Shown piece by piece: positions 1 through 12,051 of a DNA stretch of 12,051 nt. Every line of letters begins with the position of its first letter. The first letter of the stretch is position 1. A model generated the notes under the pieces. The model had not been told where the DNA came from. It worked only from the letters and a program-made list of their open reading frames with translations, and searched no databases. The stretch covers positions 1-12,051 of the forward strand of contig WLNG01000021.1 of assembly GCA_009699915.1 (NCBI GenBank). Reading direction: 5' to 3'. Source of the DNA: Actinomycetota bacterium. Its GTDB lineage: Bacteria > Actinomycetota > Thermoleophilia > Solirubrobacterales > Solirubrobacteraceae. A program made the translations under genes and the position numbers.

Positions 1-763
1 GCTCGATCGCAGCGTCGATGTCACGCGCGGACACATCCCAGGTGCCTCCCCGGGCCGCGGCGCCGAGCATGCCGACGCGCGCCACCCGCACCGACGCGGC
101 CCCCAGGAGCCACGCGTGCTCGAGCAGGTGCTCCACGTAGCCGAGGTTCGCGGGGGTGACGACGTGGATCAGCCGCACGCGCACGCCGCGAGCGAGCAGG
201 CGGTCGACCGCGGCGACGGCCCTGCCCCAGCTCCCGGACCCGCCGCGCGCGCCGTCGTGCAGGGAGGCGGTCGCCCCGTCGAGCGAGATGTTGACCTGCA
301 GGCCGGGGATCGTCGCGAGATGGTCGGCGACCGCATCGTCGACGAACCAGCCGTTCGTGTTCATGGTCGTGCCGACGCGCGCCTGCGAGAGGGTCGTCAG
401 CAGCTCGAGTGCGAGGTCTCTGCGCAGCAGCGGCTCGCCTCCGGTGACGACGGCCTCGACCACGCCGGCCTGGATCGCGTCGGCCGTGACGCGCCGCCAG
501 TCGTCATCGCTGAGGTCGATCGACTTCGCCCGGGTGTGCCGGGGCGAGTCCGTGTAACAGAACGGGCACTGGAGGTTGCAGCGGTGCGTCAGTTCCAGCT
601 TGACGCCGACCGGCGCCTCCGGCGGCAGCTCGATTCCGGCGGGCGACCAGAGCCCGAGCCGCAGCGCAAGACGGCGCGCCGCGAGATTGCGGTCGAGGCG
701 GCGGCCCAGCGCTCGTGCGCCGCGACTGCGTGTGAGTGGGGCGACGCGCGCCGATGCGGCCAA
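1..763 (-). CDS. Radical SAM enzyme (RiPP-maturase-like), C-terminus beyond window
   Basis: This is an open frame with no stop to the left edge; 254 codons are visible. CxxxCxxC, reading CNLQCPFC (Cys62, Cys66, Cys69), is the 4Fe-4S/SAM cluster site of radical SAM enzymes. TGGEP at 107-111 is the SAM-binding motif, followed by a MNTNGW segment and an NISLDGA strand typical of PqqE/MftC-like enzymes. A SPASM domain, if any, would lie in the missing C-terminus. TTG at 763 is the only ATG, GTG or TTG between the upstream in-frame stop (769-767) and the cluster motif, so it is the likely start. The first ~50 residues are Arg/Ala/Leu-rich and do not look like an RRE domain. The gene starts three bases after a 42-residue peptide gene, in the same frame and with no clear ribosome site, which suggests translational coupling. 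The proposed role is peptide modification; the fold is certain, the substrate is inferred. Confidence 0.9.
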   Translation of the reverse strand, partial: MAASARVAPLTRSRGARALGRRLDRNLAARRLALRLGLWSPAGIELPPEAPVGVKLELTHRCNLQCPFCYTDSPRHTRAKSIDLSDDDWRRVTADAIQAGVVEAVVTGGEPLLRRDLALELLTTLSQARVGTTMNTNGWFVDDAVADHLATIPGLQVNISLDGATASLHDGARGGSGSWGRAVAAVDRLLARGVRVRLIHVVTPANLGYVEHLLEHAWLLGAASVRVARVGMLGAAARGGTWDVSARDIDAAIE

Positions 764-766
764 GGC

Positions 767-895
767 CTAAAGAACGCTCTTGGCGGCCGCCGTCACCGCG
801 GGGCCGTCGACGCACTCGAGATCCTCCACGACCGGCGCCTCGTACGCGACGACATCCTCGCCCTGCTGCTCGTGATCCGACTCGTGCTCGTGCAT
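767..895 (-). CDS. Candidate RiPP precursor peptide, 42 aa
   Basis: This is a 42-codon ORF, ATG at 895 and TAG at 769-767, too short for most gene callers. A strong GAGGAG lies five bases upstream of the ATG, and a TTGACC-N17-TAGCGT promoter-like pair lies further up. The peptide starts with an acidic/His/Gln-rich stretch (MHEHESDHEQQGED), followed by VVAYEAPVVEDLECVDG and an Ala-rich end finishing in KSVL. Tyr18 and Pro21 form a YxxP pair with hydrophobic positions after it (V23, L26), reminiscent of leader motifs bound by PqqD-like RRE domains in lasso and other RiPP precursors. The only Cys, Cys28, could be a thioether donor. The radical SAM gene begins three bases downstream. The ORF and its translation signals are seen directly; the RiPP role is inferred from size, composition and neighbour. 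I do not recognise a named family. Confidence 0.72.
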   Translation of the reverse strand: MHEHESDHEQQGEDVVAYEAPVVEDLECVDGPAVTAAAKSVL

Positions 896-900
896 CTGCG

Positions 901-906
901 CTCCTC
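901..906 (-). promoter_or_regulatory. Ribosome binding site of the peptide gene
   Basis: GAGGAG on the minus strand with a five-base spacer (CGCAG) to the ATG at 895. It is one of the best Shine-Dalgarno matches in the window and decides the reading of the 42-residue ORF as a real gene. Confidence 0.75.
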
Positions 907-940
907 GATGTTGGTGGTGACCCAGCGTACGGGACGGGAG

Positions 941-954
941 CCCACGCTAGTGGG
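941..954. promoter_or_regulatory. Palindrome over the -10 element (possible operator)
   Basis: CCCAC-GCTA-GTGGG is an inverted repeat with 5-bp arms and a 4-base centre that covers the proposed -10 hexamer of the peptide operon. A regulator bound here would block the promoter. The arms are short for an operator, and a chance occurrence in GC-rich DNA is possible. Confidence 0.3.
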
Positions 955-972
955 CGGGAGTCTCGCGGTCAA
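944..972 (-). promoter_or_regulatory. Candidate sigma70-type promoter of the peptide/radical SAM operon
   Basis: On the minus strand, TTGACC (972-967) and TAGCGT (949-944) are separated by exactly 17 bases, close to the actinobacterial housekeeping consensus. Transcription would begin near 936-938, leaving a leader of about 40 bases before the ATG at 895. The call is pattern-based only. Confidence 0.45.
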
Positions 973-996
973 AGCCTTTCCCGGGCGGCCCGCAGC

Positions 997-1034
997 GCCC
1001 GAGCCTCAGCTCGGGCAGATCAACCCGAGCGACG
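997..1034. repeat. 38-bp direct repeat, left copy
   Basis: Identical over 38 bases to 2853-2890, in the same orientation. It includes the hairpin GCCCGAGC-CTCA-GCTCGGGC and the last codons and stop of the propeller/Ig gene. Similarity continues with a few mismatches to about 1057, matching 2913. The two copies flank the S8 protease gene, so recombination between them would delete it. Confidence 0.9.
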
Positions 1035-1099
1035 TCTTCGACGCCGTGCCGCCCGTCATCGTGCCCGCGAAGTTCGTCGCGGCCTGCGCCGTCGGCGCT
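1006..1099 (-). pseudogene. C-terminal relic of a propeller/Ig-like secreted protein
   Basis: On the minus strand this reads AQAATNFAGT directly followed by MTGGTASKTSLGLICPS and a stop. The intact gene at 2862-4292 has SQAATNFAGT near residue 357 and ends in TGGQASKASLGLICPS. The two segments, 94 codons apart in the intact gene, are joined in frame here at a short shared CCGTC. Bases 1054-1088 match 3192-3226 with two differences. There is no start codon, and the frame hits TGA upstream inside the tRNA-like fragment. It is a broken copy, either of a paralog that lacked the Lys/Gly-rich domain or of a copy with an internal in-frame deletion. Confidence 0.75.
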
Positions 1100-1123
1100 G
1101 GGGTTCAAATCCCCCTCTCTCCG
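1100..1123 (+). other. 3' fragment of a tRNA-Ser gene (possible att remnant)
   Basis: The plus strand reads GGGG-TTCAAAT-CCCCC-TCTCTCC-G: four bases of a T stem, a canonical T loop, the closing T stem, a 7-base acceptor 3' strand and a G discriminator. As I remember it, this matches the 3' end of the E. coli serU tRNA-Ser gene base for base. No D-arm, anticodon arm or complementary GGAGAGA 5' acceptor strand lies upstream, where relic protein sequence is found instead, so it cannot be a functional tRNA. Such 3' ends are typically left at the far end of elements that integrate into tRNA genes. Confidence 0.6.
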
Positions 1124-1184
1124 CTGGGATCGGCTCCTGAGACCGGCTCGAGAACCGCGCTGCTGCACTACCGTTTTAGGTGTG

Positions 1185-2849
1185 ATGCAGATGGCGTATC
1201 GCACAGGAGTGAGACGAGGCACCGTGGCTCTCTGGTGTGCGGTGCTCGTCGGGCTCGCGTGCGTCGCACTGAGCGCGACCATCGCGCCCCAGTCGTACGC
1301 AGCGGCTCCCGGCCGCGTCGAGCTGATCGTCCTGCGCAAGCCGCGGCTGGCCGCGGGAGAGCGACGGGCGCTGCGGCAGCGCGCAGGCGCCGACTTCGTG
1401 CGCTCGCTGCGGATCCCCGAGGCCGAGATCGTCTCGGTCCCCGCCGGCCGGGCGCAGGCCGCGCTGGGCGAGCTGCGCTCTGATCCGACGGTCAGTCTGG
1501 CCGTGGTGGACGCGGCGATCGAGCCGGCCGCGACGACCACCGGCGACCCCTCGTTCGGCGCGCTCTGGGCGCTCGTGAACCCCGGCGGCCCGGGGGCGAC
1601 CTTCGACGCCGACGTCGATGCTCCGGGGGCGTGGGCCGTTGCGACCGGCAAGGGCGTCGTAGTGGCGGTCGTCGACACCGGCACCGAATCCACGCACCCC
1701 GATCTGCGCCGCCAGTACGCGATCAACCCCGCCGAGAGCGGCAACGGGCGCGAATCGAATGGCATCGACGACGACGGCAACGGCCTGGTGGACGACTGGC
1801 GCGGCTGGGACTTCGTCGACGACGACAACAACCCCGCCACCACGCTCCTGGGCCATGGGGTGCACGTCCTCGGCACGATCGTGGCCGCGAACGGCAACGG
1901 AATCGGCATCAGCGGGATCGCCCCCGACGCCCGGGCGCTGCCGGTACGCGTCATCGGCGATGACAACCGCGGATCGTGGTCGGTCCTGCTGGAGGCCACA
2001 GAGGCGGTGGCATCGGCTGGCGCACGCGTCGTCAACCTCTCGCTCGGCGGCCCCGCCGACCCGTTGCTCGGGCAGCTCTTCGCTCAGATCGCTGCGCGCC
2101 ACCCAAGCACGCTCTTTGTGGCAGCCGCGGGGAACTCGGATTTGAACCTCGACATCGGCGAGAACGTCTACCCATGCGAGGCGCCGGCATCGAACGTCCT
2201 CTGCGTCGGCGCGTCCACGAGCAATGACACCCGCGCTCTCTTCTCCAACTACGGGAGCCGCTCCGTCGATCTCTTCGCCCCCGGCAGCGGAATCCTCTCC
2301 ACCGCGCTCGGTGGCCGCTACGACAGCCTCGACGGGACGTCGATGGCCGTGCCGTTCGCCTCCGGCGCCGCCGCCCTGCTCTTCTCCAAGGATCCGAGCC
2401 TCAGCGGCAAGCAGGCACGCGAAGATCTCATCGCGCACGTCGAGGTGCGCAGCGGCATGATCAGCGTCTCGGGCGGCCGACTGGACGCGGCGACCGCGCT
2501 CCATTCCCCAAATGCGCATCTTGGGCATGGCCGGCCGACGGTGCGATCGGCGAGGGTCCTCGTCTCCTCGCGCTGTACGACACGCCGCCCGCGCTGCCGG
2601 CGGGCGGCTTCGCTGCGCGCCACCGGCGGGAACGGCGCGAGCGCCCTGACATACAGCGTCACGCGCAGGAACCGGTCGGGCGCGGTGGTGGCCGTGACGC
2701 ACAGAACCGTCCAGCTGCGCCGATCCACCGCCACCACGACGAGGCTCCCCGTGCGCCTGCCCGCCGGGGCCTACCGCATCTCGATCAGAACGAGCGGCGT
2801 CAACGGCCGCTCGAAGGCCGCCGTGCGCTCGTTCACCGTGCGGCCCTGA
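1185..2849 (+). CDS. Secreted subtilisin-family (S8) serine protease with pro-region and C-terminal beta domain
   Basis: 554 residues. A basic N-terminus and hydrophobic stretch ending near QSYA (about residue 39) form a Sec signal peptide. Residues ~42-115 resemble an I9-type propeptide (VSVPAGRAQAAL, then DPTVSLAVVDAAI). The S8 triad is visible: Asp164 in VVDTGTESTHPDL, His224 in GHGVHVLGTI and Ser386 in DGTSMAVPFASG, with oxyanion Asn317 in AAAGNSD. The Asp-rich NGIDDDGNGLVDD insert (~192-204) looks like a calcium loop seen in many S8 enzymes. The usual GTHVAG after His is GVHVLG here. The last ~105 residues are Arg/Ser/Thr-rich, probably a beta-sandwich for surface association. TTTTAGG precedes ATG 1185; GTG 1182 and ATG 1191 are alternatives. 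It likely degrades extracellular protein; its substrate is unknown. Confidence 0.93.
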   Translation: MQMAYRTGVRRGTVALWCAVLVGLACVALSATIAPQSYAAAPGRVELIVLRKPRLAAGERRALRQRAGADFVRSLRIPEAEIVSVPAGRAQAALGELRSDPTVSLAVVDAAIEPAATTTGDPSFGALWALVNPGGPGATFDADVDAPGAWAVATGKGVVVAVVDTGTESTHPDLRRQYAINPAESGNGRESNGIDDDGNGLVDDWRGWDFVDDDNNPATTLLGHGVHVLGTIVAANGNGIGISGIAPDARALPVRVIGDDNRGSWSVLLEATEAVASAGARVVNLSLGGPADPLLGQLFAQIAARHPSTLFVAAAGNSDLNLDIGENVYPCEAPASNVLCVGASTSNDTRALFSNYGSRSVDLFAPGSGILSTALGGRYDSLDGTSMAVPFASGAAALLFSKDPSLSGKQAREDLIAHVEVRSGMISVSGGRLDAATALHSPNAHLGHGRPTVRSARVLVSSRCTTRRPRCRRAASLRATGGNGASALTYSVTRRNRSGAVVAVTHRTVQLRRSTATTTRLPVRLPAGAYRISIRTSGVNGRSKAAVRSFTVRP

Positions 2850-2852
2850 GCG

Positions 2853-2872
2853 GCCCGAGCCTCAGCTCGGGC
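2853..2872. terminator. Hairpin between convergent genes, likely bidirectional terminator
   Basis: GCCCGAGC-CTCA-GCTCGGGC is a perfect 8-bp stem with a 4-base loop. It begins four bases after the protease stop, and its loop holds the stop codon of the opposing gene. There is no T-run, as is common in high-GC actinobacteria. The same hairpin occurs at 997-1016 in the relic. Confidence 0.55.
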
Positions 2873-2890
2873 AGATCAACCCGAGCGACG
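2853..2890. repeat. 38-bp direct repeat, right copy
   Basis: Perfect copy of 997-1034. It covers the hairpin and the final codons of the intact propeller/Ig-like gene; see the left copy for the recombination implication. Confidence 0.9.
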
Positions 2891-4292
2891 CCTTCGACGC
2901 CTGGCCGCCCGTCGGCGTGCCGGTCACGTTCACCACGACCTTGCCGCCCTTCTTAACGAACGCCTTGCCCTTCGCGCTCAGCTTCAGTTTCACCGTCACC
3001 GTGCCCGCCTTCGTGACCGTGGCGGTGCCGGTCGCGACGACCTTCGAGCCGGCCTTCACGCTCACGACGAGCTTGCCCGCGGCACCCGCCTTCACCTTGA
3101 TCGAGGCCTTGCCGCCCTTGAACTTGAGCTTGCCGCCCGCCGGCTTGACGATCGCCGCCATCGCCTTCACGGCCGCAGCGGTGGAGGTCGCCGTCGTCGT
3201 GCCTGCGAAGTTCGTCGCGGCCTGCGAACAGGAGTACGTCCCGGCCTTCGTCGGCTGATATGTCGCGCCGGTCGCGCCGGCGATCGTCGACCCGTTGCGC
3301 TGCCAGGCCGTCGTCGGAGTGCCCTGCGGAGCGCGGTACTCGAACGCGCCGACGATGCCCGGGCTCCACGTGATGTCGCACGACAGCGACGAGCCGACCA
3401 CGCCCGCGCTCACCGTCGCGGCCTGCACCTTCGGCGCCTTCGTGATCACCGGATAACTCGGTTGGTTCACGGCGGGACCCGTGAGCGTCAACAACGTCGT
3501 CGTCTTGAGCCGTAGCGTGATGTAGGCGATCCTGGTGTCGAAAGAATTGCCGGTGATGTACAGGCGGTTGGTCTCAGGGTTCAGCGCCAGGCCGTACGCA
3601 AAGTCGCGGACGCTGTACGAGAGCACCTCACAGCTGGTGCCATCGAGATTCGCGCCCACGACCACTCCGGTCGAGCCGTCGAAGCCGGAGACGTAGAGCT
3701 TGTTCGCCGCGGTGTCGACGGCGACCGAATACGTGCGCGTGAGCGAACAGCCGGAGAACGTGATCGGCGTCGCCGACCCGCTGCCGCCGGTGCCCAGATA
3801 GAAGACCTTGCCCGCTTGGTCCACCCAGTAGACGCGGTTGCTGACCGTGTCGACCGTGGGACTCCGTACGTAGCCCGAAGCCGGGGTGAAGAAGGTTCCC
3901 TTGTCCGTCGGGTTCGCGACCGAGGCGTAGCCGATCGAGTCGCCATTCGCGTAGAAGATTTTGTTGCCCACCGGATCGAACGCGATGCCAGAGAGGCTCC
4001 CGCCGATCCCCGTGAGGATGTCCTGCGAGTCGCTGCCGTCAGGCTTGACCGAGACGATCTTGCCGCCATCGTAGTCGGCGATGAAGATACGGCCGCCCGT
4101 CATGTCGACGGCGGTGCCGTTGGGCGTGGAAGCGGTCCACGGCTGTGTCACGGCACCGGAGCCCAGGCCGCCAACGGACAGGCCTCGAGGAAAGGCGTAG
4201 TTGCTCCACCAGAGCTGGTCTGCGGCCGAGGCTGCGGGCGCCAGGGCGAGGAGGAAGCCGACGACGAGACCGACGGCGCGAAGAGACTTCAT
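2862..4292 (-). CDS. Secreted beta-propeller protein with Ig-like and Lys/Gly-rich C-terminal domains
   Basis: 476 residues. The signal peptide MKSLRAVGLVVGFLLALAPA...ASA is probably cleaved near residue 23. Residues ~24-285 form repeats such as GGRIFIADYDGGKIVSVKPDG, GNKIFYANGDSIGYAS, SNRVYWVDQAGKVFYL and NRLYITGNS, the YWTD/NHL-like blade pattern of a beta-propeller. Residues ~287-375 are an Ig-like domain with a likely Cys305-Cys355 disulfide and a WQRNGSTIAGATG strand pair. Residues ~380-455 are rich in Lys, Gly, Val and Thr with alternating hydrophobics, as in repeated beta-strand wall- or polysaccharide-associated tails. GGAGGA lies four bases before the ATG. It converges with the protease, 12 bp apart. 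No catalytic motif is seen; an adhesive or carbohydrate-binding surface role is a guess. Confidence 0.85.
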   Translation of the reverse strand: MKSLRAVGLVVGFLLALAPAASAADQLWWSNYAFPRGLSVGGLGSGAVTQPWTASTPNGTAVDMTGGRIFIADYDGGKIVSVKPDGSDSQDILTGIGGSLSGIAFDPVGNKIFYANGDSIGYASVANPTDKGTFFTPASGYVRSPTVDTVSNRVYWVDQAGKVFYLGTGGSGSATPITFSGCSLTRTYSVAVDTAANKLYVSGFDGSTGVVVGANLDGTSCEVLSYSVRDFAYGLALNPETNRLYITGNSFDTRIAYITLRLKTTTLLTLTGPAVNQPSYPVITKAPKVQAATVSAGVVGSSLSCDITWSPGIVGAFEYRAPQGTPTTAWQRNGSTIAGATGATYQPTKAGTYSCSQAATNFAGTTTATSTAAAVKAMAAIVKPAGGKLKFKGGKASIKVKAGAAGKLVVSVKAGSKVVATGTATVTKAGTVTVKLKLSAKGKAFVKKGGKVVVNVTGTPTGGQASKASLGLICPS

Positions 4293-4370
4293 GCTGTCCT
4301 CCGAAGTAGGGAAACCGTCGCCTCACGGAGAGCGATCGGCACCGAGCGTAGCGAAATGGGTGAACCGAAT

Positions 4371-4386
4371 GGCGCCCTTCGGCGCC
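4371..4386 (-). terminator. Small hairpin after the four-gene minus-strand unit
   Basis: GGCGCC-CTTC-GGCGCC (6-bp stem, 4-base loop) begins within the TAG stop of the small downstream gene. It could end the unit that starts with the acyl-CoA dehydrogenase. The stem is short and has no T-run. Confidence 0.35.
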
Positions 4387-4640
4387 TACCCTTCAGCGCC
4401 CTCGTCCTGCGGGATCACGAGCACGACGTGGCGGCGCGAGACGGCGAGCACCGGGTGGTGCGTCGTCGTGCCGGGCTGCTCGAGCAGCTCGACCTCGCAG
4501 TCGATCAGCGTGAGGAAGTGGCGCTCGGCGTTGAGGACGTCGGTCACGCGGCTGCGGTACCCGCCCGCCGGCATCGTGAGCCAGCCGGAGATCCGGTGGC
4601 GCTCCGTCTCGACGTGGACCCGTTCGCGGCGCTGCTCCAT
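4386..4640 (-). CDS. Small conserved-looking protein, 84 aa (DUF6812-like)
   Basis: 84 residues from ATG at 4640, ten bases after the Nudix stop. An upstream in-frame extension overlaps the Nudix gene and is not credible. The sequence HVETERHRISGWLTMP-AGGYRSRVTDVLN, then FLTLIDCEVELLE and VAVSRRHVVLVIPQDE, resembles a family of small actinobacterial all-beta proteins that I recall as DUF6812; the assignment is from memory. There are no membrane segments and no catalytic motif. The position at the end of the phosphatase/Nudix unit suggests co-expression only. Its function is unknown. Confidence 0.75.
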   Translation of the reverse strand: MEQRRERVHVETERHRISGWLTMPAGGYRSRVTDVLNAERHFLTLIDCEVELLEQPGTTTHHPVLAVSRRHVVLVIPQDEGAEG

Positions 4641-4650
4641 GGCGCAGAGC

Positions 4651-5052
4651 CTACGCGCATGCTGCCAGGCCGTCGATGAGGGCTTGGTCGTGCTCGTAGG
4701 TGAGCAGCGCGACCGCCTCGCCCGGAGCAAGCCAGCGCAGTTCGTCGACCTCCTCGTTGGGCGTGAACACGCCGCCCGTGACGGTCATGCGCCAGTAGCG
4801 CACGAGCTTTGCCCGGCCGCGCGCGTCGAAGTAGCGGACCGGCTTGAGTTCATCCCCAAGCTCACAGACCAGACCCGTCTCCTCAAGAGCCTCGCGCAGC
4901 GCCGCCTGTTCGAACGTCTCCCCCCGGTCGAGCTTGCCCTTCGGCAGCGACCAGTCGTCGTAGCGCGGCCGGTGCACCACGGCGACGCGGCCGTCGCGTT
5001 CGATTACTCCGCCGGCAGCCTCAACCTGCGGGGCGATGCCGCCGGGGCTCAT
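4651..5052 (-). CDS. Nudix hydrolase (MutT/diadenosine-polyphosphate type)
   Basis: 133 residues. A complete Nudix box GX5EX7REUXEEXGU spans Gly39 to Leu61 (GKLDRGET then REALEETGL), preceded by WSLPKGK, the signature shared by MutT1-like and Ap4A-hydrolase-like enzymes. The early VEAAGGVI strand and the late WLAPGEA segment complete the fold. The family hydrolyses nucleoside diphosphates linked to another group, such as 8-oxo-dGTP or ApnA. The ATG overlaps the stop of the upstream phosphatase as ATGA, so the two are translationally coupled. In mycobacteria MutT1 carries this domain plus a histidine phosphatase on one chain; here the domains are separate adjacent genes, which points to oxidised or alarmone nucleotide clearance. 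Confidence 0.9.
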   Translation of the reverse strand: MSPGGIAPQVEAAGGVIERDGRVAVVHRPRYDDWSLPKGKLDRGETFEQAALREALEETGLVCELGDELKPVRYFDARGRAKLVRYWRMTVTGGVFTPNEEVDELRWLAPGEAVALLTYEHDQALIDGLAACA

Positions 5053-5516
5053 CGAATCGCGCGCAGCTCGCGCGGGCGCAGCAGGACGATCAGCTCGCCG
5101 CGGGCGCCGTCCAGCCGCACCCCGGCGACGCCGCCCTTCTTCATGTCGATCCGTGCGCCGGTGAGGTCGTGGACGATCTGGCTGAAGTCGGGCTCGTGCC
5201 CGACGATCAGCACGTCGGTCTCATCCTGCTCGGCCGCGACGAGCGCCAGCGCGTCGCGGGCCTCGAAACCAGCGGAGAGCGGCGCGTGCACGACCGGCTC
5301 GGCGCCAAGCCCCTCACCTGCGAGCCGCGCCGTCTCCTGCGCGCGGACCCGCGGGCTCGTGTGGAAGCCCGACGGGACTACGCCGAGCGCGCGCAGCGCG
5401 GCGCCCGCCGCGCGCGCCTGCTCCTCACCGCGCGCGGTCAACGGGCGCTCGGCGTCGGGCCGCGTCCCGTACGGCTCGGCATCACCGTGACGCAGCAACC
5501 AGAGACGGCGTGCCAT
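5049..5516 (-). CDS. SixA-like histidine phosphatase
   Basis: 155 residues, a single phosphoglycerate-mutase-like domain. LLRHGDA carries the RHG motif with nucleophile His10. TSPRVRAQETA supplies the phosphate-binding Arg56, and IVGHEPD holds the second catalytic His107. Length and motif spacing match the small SixA class rather than glycolytic mutases. GAGG, formed across the upstream acyl-CoA dehydrogenase stop, lies five bases before the ATG at 5516. The gene starts six bases after that stop and overlaps the Nudix start by four bases. Given the Nudix partner, a nucleotide product (dephosphorylating what the Nudix enzyme yields, as in MutT1) is as likely as a phosphohistidine protein; this is inference. 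Confidence 0.88.
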   Translation of the reverse strand: MARRLWLLRHGDAEPYGTRPDAERPLTARGEEQARAAGAALRALGVVPSGFHTSPRVRAQETARLAGEGLGAEPVVHAPLSAGFEARDALALVAAEQDETDVLIVGHEPDFSQIVHDLTGARIDMKKGGVAGVRLDGARGELIVLLRPRELRAIR

Positions 5517-5522
5517 CGGTCC

Positions 5523-6761
5523 TCAGTCGAACGCGCCGACGGGGGCGGGCATGCCGGCTCGAGCGTTGATCTCCTGACGGCCGATCGCCCGCAGATGGAC
5601 CTCGTCGGGACCATCCACGAAGCGCAGCGTGCGCGCGTGGGCGTACATCGCGGCGAGCGGGAAGTCGCCCGAAAGGCCGGCCGCACCGAAGGACTGGATC
5701 GCCCGGTCGATCACCTGGCCGGCCATCCGCGCAGCGACGACCTTGATCGCCGCGATCTCCTTGCGGGCTGCCTTGTTGCCGACGTTGTCCATCATCCACG
5801 CCGCTTTGAGCGTGAGCAGGCGCGCCTGCTCGATCTCGACGCTGGAGAGCGCGATCCACTCGCGGATCACCCCGCGATCGGCGATCGGCGCGCCGAAGGC
5901 GACGCGGTTGGCGACCCGGTCGATCATCAGTTCCAGCGCACGCTGGGACATCCCGATCGCGCGCATGCAGTGGTGGATGCGGCCCGGGCCCAGGCGCGCC
6001 TGGGCGACGGCGAAGCCCTGGCCCTCCTCGTGGATGAGGTTCTCCTTCGGAACGCGCACGTTCTCGTAGCGCACCACAGGGTGGCCGTGCTGATCGTCGT
6101 AACCGAGCACCGTGAGATGACGCTCAACCGTCACGCCGGGCGAATCGAACGGCACGAGGATCATCGAATGGCGCGCGTACTTCGGACCGTCAGGGTTGGA
6201 GACGCCCATCACGATCGCGACCTTGCAGCGCGGGTCGGCGGCTCCGGTGCTCCACCACTTACGGCCGTTGACGACATACTCGTCGCCGTCGCGCTGGATC
6301 GTCGCCTGCATGTTCGTCGCGTCGCTCGAGGCGACGGCCGGCTCGGTCATGCCGAAGCAGGAGCGGATCTCGCCCTCGAGCAGCGGGTGGAGCCAGCGCT
6401 CCTGCTGCTCGGGCGTGCCGAACATGTGCAGGACCTCCATGTTCCCCGTGTCAGGGGCCGAGCAGTTGATCGACTCGGGCGCGATCTCGATGCTGCGGCC
6501 GCAGATCTCGGCAATCGGCGCGTACTCGAGGTTCGAGAGGCCTGCCCCGTGGACCTCGTCGTTCGGCAGGAAGAGATTCCAGAGCCCGCGCGAACGCGCC
6601 TCCTGCTTCAGATCCTCAACCACCTGAGGATGCTCGTGCGGATCGGCGGCCTCGCGCCGCTGCCGGGCGTAGACCGGTTCGGCCGGGTAGACGCACTCCT
6701 CCATGAACTGGTTCATGCGGTGCTGGAAGTCGAGCGAGCGCTCGCTGTGGGCGAAGTCCAT
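5523..6761 (-). CDS. Acyl-CoA dehydrogenase (ACAD10/11-like)
   Basis: 412 residues from ATG at 6761; the frame stays open upstream, but the extension would run through the divergent kinase gene. It has an all-helical N-terminal domain, then [16 protein letters not shown] (~135-150), which binds FAD and substrate, then [13 protein letters not shown] (~162-174). The C-terminal helical domain ends in [10 protein letters not shown] (~380-389), the version of the active-site segment typical of the ACAD10/ACAD11-like branch. The family oxidises acyl-CoA to enoyl-CoA with FAD and electron-transfer flavoprotein. The divergent APH-like kinase 61 bp away mirrors the kinase-ACAD fusion of ACAD10/11, which turns 4-hydroxyacyl-CoAs into enoyl-CoAs through a phosphorylated intermediate. 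That substrate is inferred. It is the first gene of a four-gene unit. Confidence 0.92.
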
Positions 6762-6822
6762 GCGCGGATCGTATGCCTTTCCCGGCCGGGCGACCCGGTC
6801 GGACGGCGGTACCTTTGCGGAC
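6762..6822. promoter_or_regulatory. Divergent intergenic region between ACAD and APH-like kinase
   Basis: These 61 bases must hold both promoters if the two starts are right. They contain the palindrome CCCGGCCGGG near 6780 and two similar CCTTT-containing motifs. I see no convincing -35/-10 pair in either direction and no strong ribosome site for either gene; leaderless transcripts are possible. Confidence 0.4.
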
Positions 6823-7908
6823 GTGTCCATCCACGCCATCGCCCCCGATGACATCGTCCGCACGCACGCCGACGGCGCCTGCAACGCGCGCGAGCCGCTC
6901 GTGGTGCTCGAGCCGCTGATCGCCTTCCTCGACGAGCACGGGATCGGGGCCGGGGAGCCGTCGCTGGCCCCGCTCGGGGAGGGCCACTCGAACGTCACCT
7001 ATCTCGTTGAGCGCGGCGGAACCGAGTTCGTCCTGCGGCGCCCGCCGCGCGGTCCGCTGCCGCCGAGTGCGCACGACGTGCTGCGCGAGGCCCGGGTCCT
7101 GCGGGCGCTGGAGGGCCGCGCGCGCGTGCCGCGGATCCTCGCCGTCTGCGAGGACTCCGCACCGATCGGCGCGCCCTTCTGCGTGATGGAGAAGATCGAC
7201 GGGCATGTGATCACCGACCGCGTTCCGCAGGTGCTCGGCACGCCACAGGATCAGCGTCGCCTCGGGGAGGAACTGGTCGACGCGCTCGTCGAACTGCACG
7301 CGGTCGACTGGCGGGCCGCCGGGCTGGAGGACTTCGGCAAACCGACCGGCTACTGCGAGCGTCAAGTCCGGCGGTTCCGCGGTCTCTGGGACATCAATCG
7401 CACGCGTGAGATCGCCGAGATCGACGCAGTCGCACAGTGGCTCGGAGCGAACCTGCCCCAGTCGCCCGCCGCGACGATCGTTCACGGCGATTTCCGCCTC
7501 GGCAACATGGTCTACGCGCCCGAGCCGCCGGCGCGGCTCGCGGCGATCCTCGACTGGGAGATGGCGACGATCGGCGATCCGCTCGCCGATCTGGGCTATC
7601 TGGCAACGCTCTGGTCCGACCGCGACGACCCCACGGGTGGGCCGCTGGCGATCACCGCCGTGACGCGCCAGCCGGGGTTCCTGCGCCGCGACGAGCTGAT
7701 CGCCCGTTACGAGGAGCGCTCCGGCCGTTCAATGACCGACATCCGCTGGTACCAGACGCTCGCGGTCTGGAAGTTCGCGATCTTTATGGAGGGCAACTAC
7801 AAGCGTGCCGTCACCGGTGCGAGCGACGACCCCTTCAACCTCCAGTTCGGTGAGGGCGTGCTCCAGCTTGCCGCGCATGCCCGGGAGCTGGCGCTCGGCG
7901 GCACCTAG
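6823..7908 (+). CDS. APH-like phosphotransferase (acyl-CoA-associated kinase)
   Basis: 361 residues from GTG at 6823; a longer reading from ATG 6703 would overlap the dehydrogenase. It has an ATP-lobe segment [12 protein letters not shown] (~51-62), then VLRRPP and [12 protein letters not shown], characteristic of the ACAD10/11 kinase branch. The catalytic loop HGDFRLGN (221-228) has Asp223 and Asn228. The metal-binding [11 protein letters not shown] (243-253) has Asp244. The family name refers to aminoglycoside kinases, but this branch is metabolic: partners phosphorylate a hydroxyl on an acyl-CoA so that the dehydrogenase partner can eliminate or isomerise it (ACAD10/11; LvaA in levulinate catabolism). 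It is divergent from the dehydrogenase, and its TAG overlaps the convergent CtaG stop (shared CTAG, 7905-7908). Confidence 0.9.
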
Positions 7909-8828
7909 ACCGGCGACTCCGGCGCGAAGCGCTCGCCGGCGAGGATCCGCTGCTCGAGCTCGGCGCCGCGGCCCGCCGCCACAGCGCGGCCGGCGCGGCG
8001 CGTGTCGAGTGCGACGCCCCGCTCGGCGGCGAGATCGAGCAGGCGCTGACGCTCTTCGCTCTGCCGGGCGGCCCGCAGGAACAGCCAGCAGAAGAGGCCG
8101 AGGGTGACGATCGACCCCTCGATCATCATCACCGCGCCCGCCGTGACCTGATCTCCGCCGGCCGAGATGTTCCACTGCGCCTCGCCGGGACGGTAGACGT
8201 CGTAAAGCGGCGAGCCGCCGAAGACGAAGATGTTCCCCAGCACCCCGGCGGTCAGCCGGACGGCGACGATGTACCCGAGCGCCGCCGCGTTCCCGAACCA
8301 CGCCGGCTTGGGCAGCGGCCCGAGCAGTGCCATCCACATGTTCATCCCCAGCGCGAGGAAGAGCATGTGCTGGAGCGCATGCACGTTGTCGTGGCGCACC
8401 GCAGCCTCGTGCAGGACACGCGTGTGCCAGAGGTAGAGGTTCGCCGCCCACAGCAGGTAGGCGAGGACCGGGTGCGCGAGGACGCGCAGCGCGCCCATGC
8501 CGGGCAGGCGCAGAATCGGCGCGAGCAGCGGCCCGGTGAGCCCCAGCACGAGCAGCAACGAGCCGAGATCGCCGATCAGCAGGTGCTCGAGCATGTGCGC
8601 CCAGAAGAGGTCGTCGCCCATCGCCGCAAGCGGCGTGAGCAGCGCGAGCGCGATCAGCAGGATGCCCCCGCAGAAGCACACGACCCGCCAGCCAGGGACG
8701 GCGCGCGGCGTCCCGCGCAGCCGGCGCATGCCCGCGATGTACAGCGCGAGCCAGGCCGCTATCCCGATCAGGATCGGCAGCGCCTCGGTGACGGTGGGCC
8801 AGCGGATGTTGCCGGCGGCGATCAGCAC
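7905..8828 (-). CDS. ctaG: caa3-type cytochrome c oxidase assembly factor CtaG
   Basis: 307 residues, GTG start at 8828. About seven membrane segments are visible, for example ~16-33, 49-68, 86-106, 118-134, 152-169, 182-203 and 228-252. HMLEHLLIGD (78-87) and a later His cluster (H135, H140, H150, H154 in a ...HALQHMLF pattern) fit the conserved His set of the Caa3_CtaG family. The family helps deliver copper to the CuA/CuB centres of cytochrome oxidase. The soluble C-terminal ~55 residues are charged. No cox genes are in the window, so it is a stand-alone copy. Its stop overlaps that of the APH-like gene. An EamA transporter lies 24 bp upstream. Confidence 0.9.
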   Translation of the reverse strand: MLIAAGNIRWPTVTEALPILIGIAAWLALYIAGMRRLRGTPRAVPGWRVVCFCGGILLIALALLTPLAAMGDDLFWAHMLEHLLIGDLGSLLLVLGLTGPLLAPILRLPGMGALRVLAHPVLAYLLWAANLYLWHTRVLHEAAVRHDNVHALQHMLFLALGMNMWMALLGPLPKPAWFGNAAALGYIVAVRLTAGVLGNIFVFGGSPLYDVYRPGEAQWNISAGGDQVTAGAVMMIEGSIVTLGLFCWLFLRAARQSEERQRLLDLAAERGVALDTRRAGRAVAAGRGAELEQRILAGERFAPESPV

Positions 8829-8842
8829 ACTCGCAGCGTACG

Positions 8843-8870
8843 CCCGCGGCGATCAGCCCGCGGCGATCAG
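8843..8870. repeat. 14-bp tandem duplication at the end of the EamA gene
   Basis: CCCGCGGCGATCAG occurs twice in a row (8843-8856, 8857-8870). On the minus strand the first unit of the pair encodes the last residues LIAAG, and the junction creates the TGA stop at 8855-8853. A slippage duplication of 14 bp (not a multiple of 3) may have set the present C-terminus. Confidence 0.7.
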
Positions 8871-9701
8871 CGCGATGCCACCGAATGCGAGCAGAACGCC
8901 GACCGCTTGCAGGCGCCGCAGACGCTCGTCCAGGACGCCGCGCGCGAGCAGCACGGTCATCACCGGGTAGAGCGCCCCGACGACCGCGACAACGCTCAGT
9001 GCGCCGTTGGTCTGGGCGATCGCGTAGAGCGCCGTCGCTCCGGCGTCAAAACAGGCCGCCGCGATGAGCAGCGGGCGCTCGCGGCGCGCCGGGAGCGATG
9101 GGCGCCGGAGCAGCACGACCGCGATCAGCGGCGGCAGGACGGTGAGCCGCATCAGGAAGATCAGCCACGGGATGCTCACGTCGGCCGCCGCGTCGGAGAA
9201 GGTGAAATACCCGCCGAAGCCCAGCGCCGACCCGAGCGCCAAGGCGATCGCCAGCCGCGAGCGGCGCGTGTGCTCGTGGCGCTCCTCCTCCACCGCGGCC
9301 TCCAGCGAGACGAGCAGGACCCCGGTGAGCGCACAGGCCATCCCCGCACCGATCAGGACGGTCATCGGGTCGCCGCTGACCAGCCCGACGATCACCGGGA
9401 CGGCGACGCCGCACGCCGAGAGCGGCGCCACGATGCTCATCTTCCCGATTGAGAGCGCTTGGTAGAAGAGCAGCAGCCCGCCTGCGCCGCAGATCCCCGC
9501 GGCGGCCGCCAGCGCGACCGTGCCCGCATCGGGGAACGGATCGCCTGCGACCAGCACCACCACACCGGTGACCACGAGGCTCGCGGCCTCGATCACGAGC
9601 AGAACCCCGAAGACCGAGGAGCGCCGCGTCGCCATTCCTCCGATGAAGTCGGAGCTGCCCCACATCCCCGAGGCGACGAGCGAGAGCAGGATCGCGAGCA
9701 C
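8853..9701 (-). CDS. EamA-family (DMT superfamily) transporter
   Basis: 282 residues, GTG start at 9701. About ten hydrophobic helices are arranged as two similar halves of five, separated by a charged linker (AAVEEERHEHTRRSR, ~134-148), the hallmark of two EamA repeats. The first helix carries SGMWGSSDFIGG, and the end of the first half has FYQALSIGKMSIVAPLSA; the second half has TALYAIAQTNGALSVVAVVGALYP, the paired pattern of DMT exporters. The family exports amino acids, metabolites or drugs; nothing here fixes the substrate. It is followed by ctaG in the same direction, so they may be co-transcribed. No good ribosome site is seen before the GTG. Confidence 0.9.
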   Translation of the reverse strand: MLAILLSLVASGMWGSSDFIGGMATRRSSVFGVLLVIEAASLVVTGVVVLVAGDPFPDAGTVALAAAAGICGAGGLLLFYQALSIGKMSIVAPLSACGVAVPVIVGLVSGDPMTVLIGAGMACALTGVLLVSLEAAVEEERHEHTRRSRLAIALALGSALGFGGYFTFSDAAADVSIPWLIFLMRLTVLPPLIAVVLLRRPSLPARRERPLLIAAACFDAGATALYAIAQTNGALSVVAVVGALYPVMTVLLARGVLDERLRRLQAVGVLLAFGGIALIAAG

Positions 9702-9714
9702 TGCCCGGCGAGTC

Positions 9715-9742
9715 TAGGCGGGCGCCGGGCGGCGCCCGCCTA
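9715..9742 (-). terminator. Strong hairpin between HtrA-like gene and EamA gene
   Basis: TAGGCGGGCGCC-GGGC-GGCGCCCGCCTA: a perfect 12-bp stem with a 4-base loop. It lies about 15 bases past the HtrA-like stop and about 14 before the EamA start. It likely ends the protease transcript and separates it from the EamA/ctaG unit. No T-run follows on the minus strand. Confidence 0.6.
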
Positions 9743-9756
9743 AAGCCGGGTGCGCG

Positions 9757-10581
9757 TCAGACGACCGGCGTGTCCGCGCCGGCCTGCGACTGCGGCGCGA
9801 TCTGCTCGCCCGCATCGGAGATCTGTGCGAGGACGTCGGGGACCGAGATCGCAAAGCCGATGCCGACGTTGCCGCCGCCGTTCGGCGCGGTGATCTGCGA
9901 GTTGACGCCGACCACCTCGCCACGCAGGTTGAGCAGCGGGCCACCCGAGTTGCCCGGGTTGATCGCCGCATCGGTCTGCAGCGCGCCGCTGATCGTCGCA
10001 CCGGACGGCGCCTCGATATCGCGACCGGTGGCCGAGATGATGCCCTCGGTGAGGGTCTGCGCAAGGCCGTACGGGCTGCCGATCGCGAAGACCGTCTCCC
10101 CGACCTGGGGCGACGCAGCCGCGAGCGGCAGATGCGCAAGGCCTTGGGCACCGTCGACGCGCAGCAGCGCGAGGTCGGTGGAGAGGCTGCCGCCGACGAT
10201 CCGCGCCGACTGCGGCGCTCCCTCCGGGCCGATCTTGACCTGGATGGCCTGGGAGCCCGCGACGACATGGGCGTTGGTGACGATCAGGCCGTCAGCGGTG
10301 ATGACGAAGCCCGACCCGGTCGCGACGCCCTGGTCGGTCTGGGACTGGATGAAGACAACGGCATCCTTGGATCGGGCGTAGACGCCGGCGGCCCCCTGCT
10401 GGACCGCCGGCCGGGGGCTTGCCTGCTGGTCGCTCGAGCGGACGACCCGCTCAAGTGAGGCGGCGGGCGCGACCGGCGCGCCGCCGGACTGGGATGAGCT
10501 GAGCTGGGTGCCCGCGATGACGCCGAGTCCGCCGACTGCCACGGTGATCGCTGCGGCTGTGATGCTGCGAGTGGAGATCAT
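9757..10581 (-). CDS. Membrane-anchored trypsin-like (HtrA/DegP-type, S1C) serine protease without PDZ
   Basis: 274 residues. A short N-terminal hydrophobic segment (~6-25) serves as anchor or signal, followed by a Ser/Pro/Gln-rich spacer to ~60 and then the protease domain. The triad is visible: His105 in VTNAHVV, Asp136 in STDLALLRV and Ser212 in INPGNSGGPL. GSGFVITADGLIVTNAHV and VFAIGSPYGL are S1C signatures. The chain ends about 30 residues after IGFAISVPDV, exactly where HtrA proteins continue into a PDZ domain, so PDZ regulation is absent. It probably acts on the outer face of the membrane in protein quality control or regulated cleavage. ATG at 10581 is favoured because it yields the signal segment; the ribosome site is weak. 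Confidence 0.9.
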   Translation of the reverse strand: MISTRSITAAAITVAVGGLGVIAGTQLSSSQSGGAPVAPAASLERVVRSSDQQASPRPAVQQGAAGVYARSKDAVVFIQSQTDQGVATGSGFVITADGLIVTNAHVVAGSQAIQVKIGPEGAPQSARIVGGSLSTDLALLRVDGAQGLAHLPLAAASPQVGETVFAIGSPYGLAQTLTEGIISATGRDIEAPSGATISGALQTDAAINPGNSGGPLLNLRGEVVGVNSQITAPNGGGNVGIGFAISVPDVLAQISDAGEQIAPQSQAGADTPVV

Positions 10582-10674
10582 GCCCGCACTCTGCGCTCCA
10601 ACCCTGCAGCGCCGCTGAAGGCTCCCCCAATTCTCCCTACGCGGGAGCGAAAGGTTCGCTAAACCGCTCGAGCG
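10582..10674. other. Intergenic region with small inverted repeats
   Basis: 93 bases between the ALDH stop and the HtrA-like start. It holds CTCCC-TACGC-GGGAG (10633-10647), AGCGAA-AGG-TTCGCT (10646-10660) and the palindrome CGCTCGAGCG (10665-10674). One of these may end the ALDH transcript. I see no convincing promoter for the protease. Confidence 0.4.
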
Positions 10675-12051
10675 TCAGGATCTCCGGCCGCGACCGTTCA
10701 GGAAGGCGATGAGCTTGCCGATCCGGCGCGTGTTCGCCTTCGTGTTGGGGAACATGTGCAGGTCGCGCTTGGGGAAGCTGCGCGAGATCACGATCGTCTG
10801 CGGCTCGCAGAACTTCCGGATCCCGTTGGCGCCGTGACGGCTGCCGACCCCCGACTGCTTGGCGCCGCCCATCGGCAGCTCGAGCGCCGTGTAGTTGATC
10901 ATCGCGTCGTTCACACAGACCGCGCCACTGTGGATGCGCCGCGCTACCTCCTCACCGCGGGCGAGATCCTTCGTGAAGACCGCGCCGCCAAGCCCGTAGA
11001 CCGAGTCGTTCGCCAGGCGGATCGCCTCCTCCGCGTCGGCGACCTTCATCACAGGAAGCGTCGGCCCGAAGGTCTCCTGCGTCATCGCCTCCATCGTGTG
11101 GTCGACGTCGACGAGCAGCGTCGGCTCGAAGAAGAGCCCGTCACCCTCGCGGCGATGGCCGCCGACGAGCACCTTCGCGCCCTTGGCAACGGCATCCGCA
11201 ACATGGCGCTCGACGATGTCCAGCTGCGGCGGGAAGGTCATCGCGCCGACGTCGGTGGTGCCGGGCGACGCGTCATGGCCCTGCCGCAGCGCTGCGACCT
11301 TCGTCGTCACCTTCTGGAGGAACTCGTCGTAGACGGGCGCTTCGACGTAGACGCGCTCGATCGAGATGCAGGTCTGCCCACTGTTCTGCATTGAGTAGTA
11401 GACGGCGGCGTTCGCTGCACGCTCAAGGTCGGCATCCTTCAGGACGATCAGCGGGTCCTTGCCGCCGAGCTCCAGCGCATATGGGATCAGACGCTCTGCC
11501 GCCTGGACGGCGACCTTGCGGCCCGTCTGCGTCGAGCCGGTGAACATGACCATGTCGACCGCGTCGACGAGCGCCCGGCCGGTCTCGCCCCTGCCGGTCG
11601 CGACCTGGTAGACGCCCTCGGGGAAGCCGCACTCGCGCAGGCACTCGCCCATCAGCAGCGAGGTCAGCGGCGTCACCTCTGACGGCTTGAGGATCACCGC
11701 GTTGCCGGCCATCAGCGCCGGGATGCAGTCGCCGAAGGAATTCGTGAGCGGGTAGTTCCACGGCCCGATCACTCCGACGACGCCGAGCGGCCGCCAGCGC
11801 ACGTGCAGCTTCTTGCCCTTGACGAAGAGCTGCGAAGAGCTGACCTTCTCGTCGGCCAGGTAGCGCGGACCCTGCTTGGCCCAGAAGCCGAAGGCGTGCG
11901 CCCCGTAGGAGATCTCGGCGAGCTGCGCGTCCTCGTAGGTCTTGCCGGTCTCGGAGATGATCGTGTCGATCACCCGGTCGCGATGGTCGATCAGCCACTT
12001 CTGCGCGCGCAGCATGAGACGCGCACGGCCGTCGAACCCCAGGCGCTCCCA
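10675..12051 (-). CDS. NAD(P)-dependent aldehyde dehydrogenase, N-terminus beyond window
   Basis: 458 codons are visible, open to the right edge. The first codons (WERLGFDGRARLML) match the internal helix before the ALDH core, so an upstream start lies outside. GPWNYP (~96-101), FTGSTQTGR (~170-178), LELGGKDP with general base Glu194 and NSGQTC with nucleophile Cys228 are in the right order and spacing; ETFGPTLPVM and NDSVYGLGG follow. The overall pattern resembles the succinate-semialdehyde dehydrogenase/GabD2-like branch common in actinobacteria. The last ~25 residues are basic and past the usual ALDH end. It oxidises an aldehyde to the acid; the substrate is not determinable from sequence alone. 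It is in the same direction as the HtrA-like gene but separated by 93 bp with inverted repeats. Confidence 0.93.
   Translation of the reverse strand, partial: WERLGFDGRARLMLRAQKWLIDHRDRVIDTIISETGKTYEDAQLAEISYGAHAFGFWAKQGPRYLADEKVSSSQLFVKGKKLHVRWRPLGVVGVIGPWNYPLTNSFGDCIPALMAGNAVILKPSEVTPLTSLLMGECLRECGFPEGVYQVATGRGETGRALVDAVDMVMFTGSTQTGRKVAVQAAERLIPYALELGGKDPLIVLKDADLERAANAAVYYSMQNSGQTCISIERVYVEAPVYDEFLQKVTTKVAALRQGHDASPGTTDVGAMTFPPQLDIVERHVADAVAKGAKVLVGGHRREGDGLFFEPTLLVDVDHTMEAMTQETFGPTLPVMKVADAEEAIRLANDSVYGLGGAVFTKDLARGEEVARRIHSGAVCVNDAMINYTALELPMGGAKQSGVGSRHGANGIRKFCEPQTIVISRSFPKRDLHMFPNTKANTRRIGKLIAFLNGRGRRS

Follow-up and report, generated by a model that had tools for sequence, protein, structure and literature searches.

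A probable RRE-guided radical SAM peptide locus of an unnamed family in a Solirubrobacteraceae genome

We analyzed a 12,051-nucleotide stretch of DNA (hereafter the window) from an Actinomycetota bacterium of the family Solirubrobacteraceae (contig WLNG01000021.1, positions 1 to 12,051, assembly GCA_009699915.1), one end of which encodes a 42-residue peptide and, directly beside it, a radical S-adenosylmethionine (SAM) enzyme. As known here from its genes alone, the locus most probably directs the biosynthesis of a ribosomally synthesized and post-translationally modified peptide (RiPP) by an unnamed radical SAM family that would be guided by a RiPP recognition element (RRE). The hallmarks of RRE-dependent RiPP systems are found in all four of the loci that we compared: a short, conserved precursor gene lies beside the modifying enzyme, and a PqqD-type domain (PF05402) is found twice, once fused to that enzyme (the maturase) and once as a separate protein. 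The features of the window from which the argument starts are given below.

767 to 895, minus strand: precursor peptide gene, a 42-codon open reading frame (ORF) with an ATG start and the product MHEHESDHEQQGEDVVAYEAPVVEDLECVDGPAVTAAAKSVL.
901 to 906, minus strand: GAGGAG, a ribosome-binding-like site five bases (CGCAG) ahead of the precursor ATG.
818 to 844, minus strand: YEAPVVEDL (codons 18–26), a putative RRE-binding leader motif with a conserved YxxP.
782 to 805, minus strand: GPAVTAAA (codons 31–38), a putative modification site at a fixed spacing from the Tyr.
2 to 763, minus strand: first 254 residues of the radical SAM maturase (PF04055, E = 3.1e-21), which continues on contig C76 (L004, 2–733, plus strand).
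557 to 580, minus strand: CNLQCPFC in translation, the CxxxCxxC motif of the [4Fe-4S] cluster that binds SAM, with its three Cys present in 35 of 35 aligned homologues.

The first-pass annotation of this DNA had reported a 42-codon ORF with a GAGGAG site three bases upstream of a radical SAM gene, and both coordinates and sequence agree: the precursor stop codon, TAG at 769–767, is followed by GCC and then by TTG (763), at which the radical SAM ORF is listed as starting. The motifs it had picked out, CxxxCxxC and TGGEP in the enzyme and YEAP and DLECVDGP in the peptide, can likewise be read in the translations. A search for a second precursor in the same genome returned the query alone. A RiPP-type pairing had been proposed on the proviso that a small ORF be kept at this position in relatives, and one is. 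Just upstream of close homologues of the enzyme, small ORFs homologous to the window peptide occur once in locus L036 (G030:C164) and twice each in L038 (JAJAZN010000126.1, Thermoleophilia) and L039 (DHWI01000172.1, Thermoleophilia), and GAGGAG also precedes the ATG of the first L038 precursor. Contig coordinates suggest that L038 and L039 come from genomes G187 and G338, respectively, which would put the window in the same class. Across the six aligned precursors M1, Y18, E19, P21, E24, L26, T35, A36, and A37 are invariant.

A profile search of 561 candidates extended the family to 286 proteins at E <= 0.01, and the motif counts that follow refer to 120 of these matches, window copy included. 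YxxP and TAA are each present in 119, PAVTAAG in 96, and any Cys at all in 5. Counting from the Tyr in the 119 members with YxxP, the near-invariant positions comprise E+1 (117), P+3 (119), V+5 (114), E+6 (112), D+7 (109), L+8 (107), G+13 (102), P+14 (115), and T+17 (118), and the conserved segment closes with A+18 (118), A+19 (119), and G+20 (113). Position +22 is Ser or Thr in 88 of the 119. Position +10, where the window peptide has Cys28, is Thr or Ser in 88 and Cys in 2. The precursors thus share a layout in which a variable acidic N-terminus precedes YExPxVEDL and then, at fixed spacing, GPAVTAAGx(S/T); most relatives read GPAVTAAG where the window peptide reads GPAVTAAA. The tails after TAA range from 4 to 30 residues and vary in sequence. 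The tail after AA(G/A/R) contains Lys in the window peptide and in one L038 precursor of the two, and is free of it in all three precursors from L036 and L039, a weak lead from a small set.

Judged by its sequence, then, the window peptide is a member of a true peptide family. Over the 21-codon motif, it and the first L038 precursor share 8 identical codons, with 9 synonymous and 4 residue-changing differences; the other 14 pairs among the six precursors differ at 4–8 synonymous and 4–11 changing codons, and in some pairs the changing outnumber the silent, a comparison that is descriptive. The family also appears distinct from known precursors, as had been supposed earlier: none of the 45 listed members scanned against NCBIfam and Pfam had a significant match, the nearest approaches being one precursor to the NCBIfam lasso-leader model (E = 0.065) and one to a Pfam domain of unknown function (E = 0.053). 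Weak precursor matches in genomes G336, G239, and G084 (E = 0.004–0.008) are unlisted at a stricter limit of 0.001. Among viral contigs 26 stretches fitted the precursor pattern and none was confirmed, and the plasmid search left P0001 without a match.

The maturase frame runs off the window contig (G000:C124). Window bases 1–29 recur reversed as bases 1–29 of contig C76, where the frame opens with the same ARDIDAAIE and adds 234 residues to reach a total of 488, equal to the L038 homologue; the maturase family profile aligns to 3–238 on C124 and to 233–480 on C76. The proposed continuation between the contigs therefore draws on a 29-base overlap, a common frame, and homologues, with no single contig reading through. 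So assembled, the predicted enzyme comprises a radical SAM domain, a Twitch-like middle region, and a C-terminal PqqD-type RRE domain (PF05402, E = 3.9e-9). The peptide's YxxP had earlier been likened to RRE-bound leaders, and this likeness gains from finding an RRE both fused to the maturase and as a discrete protein. Of the partners for which a leftward extension had been suggested, the RRE is therefore present; a SPASM domain is not matched in the window enzyme or its full-length homologues, and the MftC of the same genome does match SPASM.

A maturase profile search of the 7994 candidates sharing most words gave 379 matches, 120 of them listed, and 32 of these were aligned with the three locus proteins. 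Only at C61, C65, C68, and C315 do all 35 proteins have Cys; between columns 69 and 428, apart from C315, just column 196 (14 of 35) has Cys in at least 4 of the 35. Cysteine ligands for an auxiliary cluster thus appear unconserved, with other ligand types possible, and the maturase probably holds a single Fe-S cluster. No radical SAM model of NCBIfam reached its cut-off among the 25 best models per protein, a result that speaks against a second circumstance in which the RiPP proposal was to be dropped, namely that the enzyme belong to a known non-peptide pathway. Other radical SAM barrels (viperin, MoaA, DesII) dominate what Foldseek and VIA returned for the maturase, so these lists say little beyond SkfB, considered below. 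A 40-base likeness between the window and G000:C28 falls inside a frame read as a transporter and was taken as chance.

Linkage of precursor and maturase beyond the four loci was gauged by equal contig extent, comparing the 120 listed precursors with 80 of the 120 maturases listed. For 14 of the precursors the longest contig is as long as that of some maturase among the 80, at 10 such values; equal-length contigs holding precursor and maturase include those of 1001428, 109559, 55160, and 19176, and short ones can coincide by chance. Two to four different precursors share equally long contigs at 16 values, the most being four at 3209, also a maturase's value, which suggests tandem precursor arrays in some relatives.

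Further genes accompany the maturase. On C76 it is followed by genes for a formyltransferase-like protein, a discrete PqqD protein (on the other strand), a kinase-like protein, and an NTP_transf_5 nucleotidyltransferase. The flanks of L036, L038, and L039 were surveyed by reading ORFs of at least 150 codons by eye and by chosen Pfam scans. The formyltransferase-like genes lie as follows.

L004, 743 to 1718 (contig C76): formyltransferase-like protein (PF00551, E = 5.6e-13).
L038, 7465 to 8448: formyltransferase-like protein, the L038 copy.

The discrete PqqD protein (E = 8.1e-19 on C76) follows the maturase, or the formyltransferase-like gene, in four of four loci, and the NTP_transf_5 protein (E = 6.3e-35 for the C76 copy) is likewise present in all four, though partial in L039. 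The kinase-like protein, which has a GxxxRGKST motif and sub-threshold HPr kinase matches on C76, aligns across the four loci; its structural model (predicted local distance difference test score 85.4, four sequences) resembles the folds of phosphoenolpyruvate (PEP) carboxykinase (best E = 2.4e-6) and of HPr kinase (best E = 4.4e-6) and predicts an HprK/PEPCK fold. The formyltransferase-like gene occurs on C76 and in L038, and the gap after the maturase in L036 and L039 is too small for it. Its N-x-H and D pattern, which we take to be catalytic, lines up in the alignment. A search gave seven such proteins at E <= 1e-15, counting the one from L038; two of the seven (P0242 and P0245) lie on contigs equally long as those of maturase matches.

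These genes suggest a course of biosynthesis. RREs are known to recognize YxxP, and recognition motifs of this kind commonly lie along the RRE as a strand (PMC12710340); the RRE would dock YExPxVEDL, and the docked precursor would offer GPAVTAAG to the radical SAM site. There the enzyme may alter one residue, for example a Val, Thr, or Ala through inversion or a different C-H change. We favor a single-residue change over a thioether because the core lacks conserved Cys, Trp, and Tyr and the enzyme probably has one Fe-S cluster; the usual crosslinks are unlikely given a core without conserved Cys, Trp, Tyr, or Lys. Relatives of the kinase-like and nucleotidyltransferase proteins occur in lasso peptide clusters (PMC8498205) and act there on the C-terminal Ser, and by analogy these proteins may add phosphate, or phosphate plus sugar, to the Ser/Thr two residues past AAG, position +22 being the candidate site for phosphate-type tailoring. 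Where present, the formyltransferase-like protein may formylate an amine, and general peptidases may remove the leader. That the whole amounts to a new RiPP class, with a GPAVTAAGx(S/T) core free of conserved Cys or aromatic residues, a C-terminal RRE, no auxiliary cluster, an unprecedented Val/Thr/Ala change, phosphate or phospho-sugar transfer, and formylation in one branch, is a possibility that we advance tentatively.

Several observations weigh against a dedicated RiPP locus. It is rare among the genomes searched, 3 of 399 from the class having the maturase, and the C-terminal half of the window enzyme was read from another contig in a genome that is 60.64% complete. The kinase-like protein falls below the Pfam cut-off in three loci and goes unseen by Pfam in L039, and a PDB sequence search with it returned nothing. 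Since the accessory genes, three in number, are divided between the strands, they may not share a single operon with the precursor. The leftward extension had also been meant to reveal a peptidase or exporter, and no dedicated one was noticed in the flanks, where ORFs of at least 150 codons were read by eye with no family search.

The known systems that most resemble this locus supply its rival explanations. Like mycofactocin (MftA/B/C), it combines a small precursor, a radical SAM maturase, and a PqqD-type RRE, and it could belong to a cofactor pathway such as those of mycofactocin or pyrroloquinoline quinone (PQQ), in which the conserved segment is excised to yield one small molecule for redox or signaling, identical across the family and retained in the cell. 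The strong conservation of GPAVTAAG would fit, as would the exporter and peptidase not noticed by eye, and the mycofactocin maturase model TIGR03962 is among the best sub-cut-off NCBIfam matches. Its scores, however, fall far under the cut-off of 265 bits (102.5 for the window part, at most 104.4), as do those of the PqqE model TIGR02109 (at most 83.9 of 381.35 bits); tails that differ in length and sequence, and different precursors on equally long contigs, are unlike one fixed product. The MftA model matches none of the 45 precursors, and the MftA of the same genome, tried as a precursor homologue, is not aligned with them by hhalign (probability 3.6%, 10 columns). The precursors also lack the C-terminal VY or E..Y pattern of such pathways. 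We regard a cofactor pathway as unlikely. The genome's true mycofactocin pair stands elsewhere (L037, G000:C160, 3200–4940), with MftC at 648 bits and MftA above cut-off, making the window locus a second radical SAM peptide system there. By family names, the SynChlorMet/HprK-rel systems (NCBIfam ScmC-F, HprK_rel_A/B, PqqD_rel_X) also pair HprK-related with PqqD-like proteins, joined in the case of Scm by radical SAM enzymes, as here; all scores are below cut-off (ScmF at most 94.4 of 400, ScmC 29.1 of 125, ScmD 27.8 of 100, PqqD_rel_X 28.4 of 35), and no Scm model matches any of the 45 precursors.

An alternative in which the enzyme acts on something else, and the peptide is itself a small protein with a regulatory or structural role, seems quite improbable. 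The peptide is small and acidic and has no known product, yet an RRE is fused to the enzyme, YxxP is kept in all but one of the 120 listed relatives, and a discrete PqqD protein adjoins in every locus. A lasso-type peptide, its conserved part all leader ending at T-A and its short tail the core, would account for a YxxP leader with Thr 17 residues past the Tyr, which we take to resemble lasso leaders, and for the one precursor near the lasso-leader model. Lasso clusters whose peptides are tailored by HPr-kinase-like and nucleotidyltransferase proteins, those of paeninodin and pseudomycoidin, share the YxxP leader, the PqqD-type RRE, and both proteins (PMC8498205). They differ in that window-type loci have a radical SAM maturase where Asn_synthase, the lasso cyclase, was not found: it is absent from these loci's contigs in four genomes, three of them only 61–67% complete, and its three matches all lie on other contigs of G338. 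Many tails are also too short for a lasso, and we consider this reading very improbable. A thioether-forming sactipeptide or ranthipeptide, finally, which the earlier annotation allowed, has in its favor the single Cys of the window peptide and the maturase's nearest structure, SkfB, the sactisynthase of the sporulation killing factor (PDB 6EFN). SkfB, however, has its RRE at the N-terminus, as given in PMC6231123, rather than the C-terminus; its auxiliary-cluster Cys align with Asp and other residues in the window maturase family; and the precursors here lack the conserved core Cys donors of those classes. With Cys conserved neither in the precursors nor at the aligned Twitch ligand positions, a role for Cys28 is not supported, and a thioether is hardly credible. 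An RRE-guided RiPP locus with other chemistry is the reading that we retain.

Counts across genomes underline its rarity. At most three candidates per genome were scored in the class and phylum draws for the maturase, which was also found in 2 of 129 genomes of the order holding G187 and, in the phylum draw, in 1 of 396, the window's own. The precursor is present in 4 of 399 class genomes and 3 of 146 of the window's family, both counts including a decayed copy in G009. In this genome of the same genus (99% complete), the second half of a precursor lies between tRNA-Ser and a NUDIX-like gene whose window counterpart stands near 4625; the remnant frame has no ATG, GTG, or TTG ahead of the motif, and the closest radical SAM match in G009 is weak (E = 8.1e-7). 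In this stretch (L051, 9798–9993) the tRNA-Ser(GGA) beside the decayed half is intact, and a 27-base piece of the window (1100–1126) matches the 3' end of a tRNA-Ser at 26 positions. Gain and loss linked to the tRNA is possible, as is an island border at the tRNA. Near the precursor, at 1182–2849, the window also has a frame read by eye as a putative secreted subtilisin-like protease, absent at the G009 counterpart.

Searches of open-licence literature turned up no account of such a motif or cluster; subscription journals may hold one, as may large mining studies of the RRE-Finder type, in the form of an unnamed cluster. On present evidence the earlier emphasis on Cys was wrong and the arrangement of peptide and enzyme right. 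The locus is real, its family has no name yet, and its RiPP-type nature has good support. The known classes do not reveal its chemistry, because conserved Cys, Trp, and Tyr are missing from the core and conserved auxiliary-cluster cysteines from the enzyme. The locus offers a defined pairing of enzyme and putative substrate within a peptide family of 286 profile matches that Pfam and NCBIfam do not recognize in the members scanned, and, together with mycofactocin, it would give this genome at least two radical SAM peptide systems.
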